Assembly: GCF_024298845.1 (NCBI RefSeq)
Contig: NZ_CP101156.1
Location: 2,108,001-2,172,000 of the forward strand
Direction: 5' to 3'
DNA length: 64,000 nucleotides
Source: Natronosalvus amylolyticus
GTDB lineage: Archaea; Halobacteriota; Halobacteria; Halobacteriales; Natrialbaceae
Every line of letters begins with the position of its first letter. Position 1 is the first letter of the stretch. A program made the translations under genes and the position numbers. Shown in pieces: positions 51,607-54,883 of this stretch. The notes below the pieces were generated by a model that saw nothing but the letters and a program-made list of their open reading frames with translations, made no database searches and had not been told where the DNA came from.

Positions 51607-51972
<366 letters not shown>

Positions 51973-53174: not shown

Positions 53175-53462
53175 ATGTTGCGTAACCGAACCGGCGAGCG
53201 GATCGATGCCCACCAGTACCCTGCGACGACGGCGGAACTGATCGAGGCCTACGGCGAAGAGCGTCTCGAACTGCCAAACGGCTCCGAACGTATCGCAGAC
53301 GTACTCGGCCGTCTCGAGAGCGAGACGTTCGAATCCGCGGACGACGCCCGAATGGCCGTCTACTCTGCGGTGAGTAACAAGGCGGTCGGCCGCGTCGGCT
53401 ACTCCGATCGCGATCCGACACCGCTCGGGAGCCCGTATGCACCCGAGCCGATGTCGTTCTAA
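53175..53462 (+). CDS. Small haloarchaeal protein (DUF5789-like)
   Basis: A 95-aa protein: RTGERIDAHQYPATTAELIEAYGEERLELPNGSERIADVLGRLES... SADDARMAVYSAVSNKAVGRVGYSDRDP. I recall this as a widespread haloarchaeal family of unknown function, DUF5789 (memory only). The pattern YPATT-xEL--YG----LPNG-E is clear. The ORF is open upstream through an ATG at 53085, adding a hydrophobic leader, but the promoter points to 53175. Its stop is 1 bp from the mobile element at 53464. Confidence 0.8.
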   Translation: MLRNRTGERIDAHQYPATTAELIEAYGEERLELPNGSERIADVLGRLESETFESADDARMAVYSAVSNKAVGRVGYSDRDPTPLGSPYAPEPMSF

Positions 53463-53463
53463 A

Positions 53464-53567
53464 TTGACATCCTCCCGCGCCTGAAGACGCGGGAATCCCG
53501 ACCGTGGTTGGGATATTACAGAAAGTCAAGGAGAAAGTCCACGACTTGAGTCGTGGGTGGATGTCAA
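53464..53567. mobile_element. 104-bp IS200/IS605-derived mini-element (PATE-like)
   Basis: The ends are perfect 9-bp inverted repeats TTGACATCC / GGATGTCAA. Inside lie three stem-loops: CCCGCG-CCTGAAGA-CGCGGG next to the left end, ATCCC...GGGAT in the middle, and CCACGACT-TG-AGTCGTGG next to the right end. The left and right segments match, from memory, the terminal hairpins of haloarchaeal IS200/IS605 (IS1341-type) elements. No transposase remains. It lies between two convergent genes and supplies the stop codon of the cupredoxin gene. Confidence 0.8.
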
Positions 53568-54463
53568 AGTTCGATCGCTTTGTTCGCGTCGTCGATCTCG
53601 TCCCAGGACACCTGTCCCTCCTCGAGGATTCGGTCCGGCTCGAGAGCAGGGTCGTTCAGCACGGTCACCGCCGCACCGACCGGTGGCCGGGGTTCCGGTG
53701 GGCCATTTTCGGCCTCCCCTGATTCGTCTTCGTCAGCCCCGTTTTCATCGTTTCCATTCTCGTGGTTGCCGTCCCCGTTATTCCCGTTCTCATCGTTGCC
53801 GCCCCCGTTATTCCCGTTCTCGTCGTTGCTGTTCCCGTGTCCGTTCGCCATTTCGGGAATCGGCTCGGCACCCGGCCCGCTCGCCTCTCCGACGACGAGT
53901 CTGGCAACGTGTCCAAACAGTTCGTGGGGGCCACAGTGTACGTCGTACACGCCCGGTTCCTCGAACGTGTACAGCCAGGACGCGCCGACCGGCAGGACCG
54001 GCGAGGAAAACGGCGGGACACCGTCGGGAACCCGTTGTTGGATGCCGAGTGCCGGGTGAAACGCCGTCACGCTGTGGTGTGGCGTGACGAGTTGAAACTG
54101 CACTGTCTCCCCGGGCTCGAGGGCGAGTCCCGTCGGTTCGAAGTAAAACTCCGGAATCTCGCGGTCGTCACGAGGTGCGATGTATGCGTCGACCGTATGA
54201 TCGGGTTCGACCGGGAATTCGACGTCTCCGGTCAACGCCGAAAATCCGAATACTGGATGGACGTCGTCACCCGACCGATCGACCCACGAGTCGTTTTCCG
54301 ATTCGTCGGTGCCGTCTGTTTCGTCACGCTCCTCGTCGTCACCCGCCAGTACCGAGCCGGTGCCGAGCGTGGCAAGCACCGCGCCTGCGCCTATAGCCTG
54401 TACGACCGACCGTCGATCGAATCGAACTGTCCCGCTGGTTGCGCCGCTCTCGTTGGTGTGCAT
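53564..54463 (-). CDS. Cupredoxin (halocyanin-like) with Asn/Gly linker and C-terminal extension
   Basis: A 299-aa exported protein: Tat signal (FDRRSVVQAIGAGAVLATLGTG), acidic linker, then a cupredoxin domain at about 85-195. Type 1 copper ligands are His129/130, Cys177 and His180 in C-G-P-H; the axial position (Cys+8), normally Met, is His185. Residues about 208-250 are Asn/Gly/Asp/Glu repeats, followed by an extension ending IEL. Its TGA stop lies within the inverted repeat of the mini-element at 53464-53567, so the original C-terminus may have differed. ATG 54463 puts the signal at the N-terminus. Confidence 0.85.
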   Translation of the reverse strand: MHTNESGATSGTVRFDRRSVVQAIGAGAVLATLGTGSVLAGDDEERDETDGTDESENDSWVDRSGDDVHPVFGFSALTGDVEFPVEPDHTVDAYIAPRDDREIPEFYFEPTGLALEPGETVQFQLVTPHHSVTAFHPALGIQQRVPDGVPPFSSPVLPVGASWLYTFEEPGVYDVHCGPHELFGHVARLVVGEASGPGAEPIPEMANGHGNSNDENGNNGGGNDENGNNGDGNHENGNDENGADEDESGEAENGPPEPRPPVGAAVTVLNDPALEPDRILEEGQVSWDEIDDANKAIEL

Positions 54464-54883
54464 GTCTCCGCCAGTCCCGGCGACGGAACAGAGCATAAAG
54501 CTATCATACAACAAACATCTGGACAGTCACGACTGTCATCGCAGTTGTCACCAGCGGACACCCAAATCCTCGCGCCGTCCCCCATAGACACCGCTCGAGT
54601 CTCCACCGACTCCGTCAGGCATCGAGAAAACGACCGAACCCGCCGACTGTTCCGGGTTCGCCCTCCATGCAAAGTGGGTGAACCATGTGCGCGGGAACAC
54701 GCTCGTGAAAACGAACTAGTGGTTCGTCAAGCCTGAACGTGTGGCCCGAACCGATAGCGGTTGTCAGGTTCGGCCCACACGTCGACGCTTGACGGAGTAC
54801 TAGTGGCTTCCCAAACCGGCACCTGTGGGTGAAGTCATGCGGTGCAGTTCGGTTTCACCAACAGGTGCCGGTTTGGGAGGGTA
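54464..54883. other. 420-bp intergenic region with two long hairpins
   Basis: No credible gene is present. Up to about 54710 the sequence looks like ordinary promoter/leader DNA for the divergent cupredoxin gene. The rest is filled by the two hairpins described at 54715-54879. Confidence 0.6.
54715..54879. repeat. Two adjacent long hairpins, each preceded by ACTAGTGG
   Basis: Hairpin 1: ACTAGTGG (54715-54722), outer arms CGTCAAGC / GCTTGACG (54725-54732, 54787-54794), inner 16-bp arms at 54737-54752 and 54767-54782 with one mismatch. Hairpin 2: ACTAGTGG (54799-54806), a perfect 18-bp stem TCCCAAACCGGCACCTGT at 54809-54826 with 54861-54878, extended inward by GGTGAA / TTCACC. It ends 5 bp before the stop of the next gene (minus strand). 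Repeated hairpin ends, a mini-mobile element, or strong terminators are candidates. Confidence 0.7.

Follow-up and report, generated by a model that had tools for sequence, protein, structure and literature searches.

The window analysed here, a 64,000-nucleotide stretch of the Natronosalvus amylolyticus genome, encodes a cupredoxin in which the axial Met of the classic type 1 (blue) copper site is absent, with a His, His202, standing in its place. In blue copper proteins the axial copper-contacting residue is almost always Met, and the axial ligand is a classic dial for tuning the site. Judging from sequence, fold model and analogy to engineered proteins, the gene product is probably an exported, mononuclear cupredoxin of pseudoazurin fold that has a natural His3Cys copper site and serves as a lower-potential one-electron carrier. 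It would thus be a natural counterpart of a Met-to-His change that has until now been examined mainly in engineered proteins. An in-frame TTG at 54514 lies upstream of the ATG at 54463 in the same open reading frame, and residues are numbered from the TTG; subtracting 17 gives the ATG frame, so that axial His202 becomes His185. Residue counts refer to an alignment of 24 distinct axial-His sequences (21 + 3) with 104 Met relatives, from which near-duplicate domains were removed; one further axial-His sequence, L109, lies outside it, having been missed by the extraction filter. The features are as follows.

53567 to 54463, minus strand: gene for the cupredoxin; 299 aa when started at the ATG, 54463 (ORF list, translation, Pfam, NCBIfam)
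54341 to 54415, minus strand: predicted twin-arginine signal peptide, DRRSVVQ, residues 34-58, kept in orthologues (translation)
53882 to 54205, minus strand: cupredoxin domain, pseudoazurin fold (Pfam, phmmer, AlphaFold model, structural matches)
53699 to 53851, minus strand: acidic linker of low complexity (Asn/Gly/Asp/Glu), pLDDT about 50, differing among orthologues
53567 to 53698, minus strand: conserved C-terminal segment ending VSWDEIDDANKAIEL, predicted helices, pLDDT 84-99
54077 to 54079, minus strand: His146, adjoining the first ligand His147; in 21/21 sequences of the axial-His group with His at Cys-1 and 23/104 Met members
54074 to 54076, minus strand: His147, N-terminal equatorial copper ligand position (pseudoazurin His40; alignment)
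54056 to 54058, minus strand: His153, invariant across the whole family
53936 to 53938, minus strand: His193 (Cys-1), in 21/24 axial-His sequences and 0/104 Met family members
53933 to 53935, minus strand: Cys194, copper thiolate ligand position (pseudoazurin Cys78; alignment)
53924 to 53926, minus strand: His197, C-terminal equatorial copper ligand position (pseudoazurin His81; alignment)
53909 to 53911, minus strand: His202, axial ligand position, Cys+8 (pseudoazurin Met86; alignment, family conservation)

The reverse complement of 53909 to 53935 reads TGT GGC CCC CAC GAA CTG TTT GGA CAC, or C-G-P-H-E-L-F-G-H, which is the copper loop from Cys194 to His202. An earlier, sequence-only reading had called a cupredoxin here, with this loop and with His185 of the ATG frame as the axial residue at Cys+8; all of this is confirmed, while the pseudoazurin-like type, the C-terminal helical part and the second His at Cys-1 had been overlooked. 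Both equatorial His residues and the Cys of cupredoxins are present, His147, Cys194 and His197 matching H40, C78 and H81 of pseudoazurin. The first of these is invariant in the 128 aligned sequences and is Arg in L109. The whole loop aligns without gaps both to pseudoazurin, by phmmer and by the family profile, and to the 104 axial-Met family members.

That the open reading frame is a real gene follows from three observations. The protein just passes the Pfam cut-off for Copper-bind (PF00127; 21.4 bits against 21.2), its best NCBIfam model is pseudoazurin TIGR02375 (37.9 bits, far under the cut-off of 109.85), and its orthologues are 58-95% identical. The stop codon, TGA, occupies 53564-53566 on the minus strand. 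The twin-arginine signal predicts export of the protein, and no lipobox Cys is found in the translated signal peptide.

From 50 family sequences a metal-free AlphaFold2 model was made, whose mean pLDDT is 87.5, with 97-99 over most of the domain and about 98 in the loop. Foldseek and VIA-align match the modelled Greek-key beta-sandwich to pseudoazurin, plastocyanin and amicyanin. Pseudoazurins rank at the top in VIA-align (Z 14.9, 2.3 A, 121 residues) and plastocyanins lower (Z 11.8). The model runs strand 111-116, Cys, helix 118-123, axial residue and strand 126-131, which is the cupredoxin order as seen in pseudoazurin. Pseudoazurins (2jkw, 1paz, 1adw) share with the haloarchaeal protein the fold, the C-x-P-H-x4-[axial] spacing and the position of the first His. 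They also share the C-terminal helices, into which the VIA-align range extends, taking in the first part of the C-terminal segment (model to residue 221). In contrast to pseudoazurin with its Met86, the haloarchaeal protein has the axial His, a six-residue insert after the first His and, ahead of the C-terminal part, a linker that is long and acidic. The fold is thus of pseudoazurin type and the pseudoazurin equivalog cut-off of TIGR02375 is missed, and we place the protein, on sequence and model, as a cupredoxin family member of this fold that lacks the axial Met.

The axial His is widely kept. Close orthologues occur in ten Natrialbaceae-group genomes, all with His at this position, and an order-wide search combined with a named genome collection finds it in proteins of at least 27 haloarchaeal species from five family-level groups, 24 with H-C...G-H and three with Y-C...G-H. 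Carriers are Natronosalvus hydrolyticus, Natronolimnohabitans innermongolicus, Natronobiforma cellulositropha, Halopiger goleimassiliensis, two Natronorubrum species and Salinadaptatus halalkaliphilus, among others, and the further family-level groups include Halogranum rubrum and a Natronomonas MAG. When genomes were searched at the DNA level for C-[GA]-P-H-E-x-F-G-H, 22 of the 392 genomes of the order matched, in 8 of its 95 genera, and all 22 sites fall within the axial-His cupredoxin gene family. A reversed control pattern has zero matches in the same 392 genomes, which rules out a chance motif. Matches to a loose pattern outside the family, in other groups, proved not to be cupredoxins. 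The axial codon is CAC in all cases inspected; since the His is kept in 27 species while synonymous codons around it vary, a sequencing error or mis-framed loop is likewise ruled out. Pairwise dN/dS over the cupredoxin domain is about 0.04-0.23, and the domain is under purifying selection. The sequence-only reading had proposed an alignment to see whether the His is conserved in a clade, and it is, in a haloarchaeal clade and in a separate three-species clade besides. The two findings that it had named as counting against its assignment did not materialize: close homologues have His rather than Met, and no other loop alignment emerged against either pseudoazurins or Met paralogues.

In the site that we propose, copper would be held by His147, Cys194 and His197, with His202 replacing the axial Met. 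The axial nitrogen would bind Cu(II) more strongly than a Met sulphur does and would pull the copper from the trigonal plane, giving a type-1.5-like site that should be green, rhombic and more tetragonal than in the Met relatives. Its potential would lie below theirs and may vary with pH. Outside the membrane, the protein would carry single electrons at a lower potential than do the Met paralogues of the same cell. A greener, more tetragonal and lower-potential site is expected because of two precedents, Met121His azurin and Met460His laccase. The azurin mutant is a type-1.5 site (Kroes 1996, as cited in PMC4059628), and for the laccase a strong N-delta His-Cu bond is described, a stronger axial interaction going with a lower potential (PMC6487685). 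Both resemble the haloarchaeal protein in having a type 1 frame with the axial Met changed to His; unlike it they are laboratory mutants, whereas the haloarchaeal His is natural, ancient and conserved.

Closer to home are the halocyanins and the haloarchaeal axial-Met relatives of the same family, which share the loop, the first His, His153 and Arg161, differing in Met at Cys+8 and in Y/L/F/M/N at Cys-1. Nitrosocyanin (red) and AcoP (green) are likewise single-domain cupredoxins found in nature whose copper sites deviate from the standard. The fourth position is Glu in nitrosocyanin and Met in AcoP, and to our knowledge neither has an axial His. Descriptions of green and red copper sites from nature are few (PMC4059628). 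The natural axial residues described are Met, Gln or, in laccases, the non-ligands Leu and Phe (sources including PMC4059628 and PMC6487685), and we found no report of a natural axial-His cupredoxin in the open-access literature, subscription journals being mostly outside the scope of the search. As far as that literature shows, His would join Met, Gln, Leu and Phe at this position. Ordinary cupredoxins with axial Met, L099 and L100, are encoded in the genome of the window as well, and their coexistence indicates that the His is not a mere replacement of Met in the host cell. A natural axial-His clade makes it possible to ask what evolution uses such a site for, with the same-genome Met paralogues as built-in controls.

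Among the alternatives, the one that survives best, although we consider it unlikely, is a cupredoxin that reacts with small molecules such as NO or superoxide and would not be an electron carrier only, its axial His being protonated or swung off the copper under working conditions and its site open or filled with water. The structural matches include 5fc9, which is Nmar1307, the purple cupredoxin of Nitrosopumilus maritimus, and His is a protonatable ligand. Like the haloarchaeal protein, Nmar1307 is an archaeal single-domain cupredoxin that reportedly lacks the usual axial Met; it is said to have an axial water instead and to act on NO. It differs in that this water is replaced by a protein His in the haloarchaeal case, and the two sequences are distant (profile E 0.00016). 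Against an open site, several carriers belong to genera of soda-lake type (Natrono-), in which an extracellular His would be deprotonated, and His193, invariant in the main axial-His group, and the E-x-F loop look fixed rather than open.

The surroundings of the gene bear on its role. Its neighbours encode a DUF5784 protein, a Cys-rich protein and an XPD-like helicase, along with other products of housekeeping type. Two haloarchaeal families have part of this arrangement in common, from which we argue that the locus was inherited vertically. In the window and at the relatives' loci we saw no gene for an oxidase, a reductase or a cytochrome linked to the cupredoxin gene, and Rfam gave zero matches around the gene. 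As the neighbours are of housekeeping type and hold no redox partner, an operon-based assignment of function was set aside. A NirK scoring over the family cut-off is absent from 11 of the 25 axial-His genomes (that of the window and 10 of the 24 others), so that electron donation to a copper nitrite reductase, if it occurs, cannot be the sole role. Co-occurrence with nitrite reductase is not consistent across these 25 genomes, and nitrite reductase was not adopted as the partner. A solitary gene beside housekeeping genes would also suit storage, buffering or sensing of copper or zinc instead of electron transfer, and an extra hard ligand would suit Zn(II) too. We hold this to be quite improbable, since the pseudoazurin fold with the full cupredoxin ligand frame is elsewhere an electron-transfer fold, and a single metal site is predicted. 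For the His3Cys electron carrier we count the ligand alignment, the fold model, the conservation, the dN/dS values, the coexisting Met paralogues and the engineered precedents; against it we count the Arg of L109 at the first ligand His, where the site may be altered, and the failure to find a neighbouring redox partner.

The axial His is accompanied by a second His. The main axial-His group has the signature H-C-x-P-H-E-x-F-G-H, found in 21 of the 24 distinct axial-His sequences, while Cys-1 is Tyr in the separate three-species clade. A Met halocyanin of a different family, from the same genomes or genus (L096, L099), has His at Cys-1, and in amicyanin too a His precedes the Cys. Strict coupling of His193 to His202 is thereby ruled out; the link is strong, short of absolute. 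In copper nitrite reductase the type 2 copper has as a ligand the residue just before the type 1 Cys. By analogy to that type 1-type 2 link, and given the restriction of the Cys-1 His to axial-His sequences within the family, clustered His146, His193 and His202 might form a second metal site or a Cys-His relay in an enzyme or dinuclear protein, but this is very improbable, as Cys-1 is Tyr in the three-species clade and His in the Met halocyanins and amicyanin, and the family alignment holds no further His specific to the axial-His group beyond these three.

In a tree built with both trait columns masked, the Y-C group stands apart from the main axial-His group with support of 100/100. The data speak against one common origin for every axial-His sequence, without formally rejecting it (p-AU 0.094); for the main H-C group they fit a single origin (p-AU 0.35). 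A broader form of the His3Cys proposal, which we advance tentatively and with some doubt, is that the site has been anciently conserved, fixed together with the Cys-1 His, for a distinct lower-potential or pH-gated function beyond the reach of the Met cupredoxins in the same cell, and that it arose perhaps more than once.

Several relatives depart from the common pattern. In L109 (genome G183) the first ligand His is replaced by Arg (TPHRSVTAYHP) and the equivalent of His146 is retained, so a ligand shift or a loss of copper binding is possible. Other haloarchaeal cupredoxins also lack the axial Met (L091, L029 and L179); their loops are CRPHEADGAV and CRTHESEGAV, with Ala, and CLVHGWAGTV, with Thr. 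Axial-Met relatives of the haloarchaeal family are found in MAGs labelled Trueperaceae (Deinococcota; L154, L155, L156), reflecting either gene transfer or mis-binning.

Elsewhere in the window, 51649-51972 encodes a small ferredoxin-like protein with 4Fe-4S Pfam matches, whose closest NCBIfam model, zinc-containing ferredoxin, scores under its cut-off. A repeat of about 100 bp at 53461-53571 is placed right where the cupredoxin gene ends, and supplies the TGA stop of the gene; it is absent from the sister species (L131). Counting itself, it has eighteen matches in the genome, several of them paired about 1.5 kb apart. From this the repeat looks like the two ends of an IS200/IS605-type element joined together, as a solo remnant or MITE.
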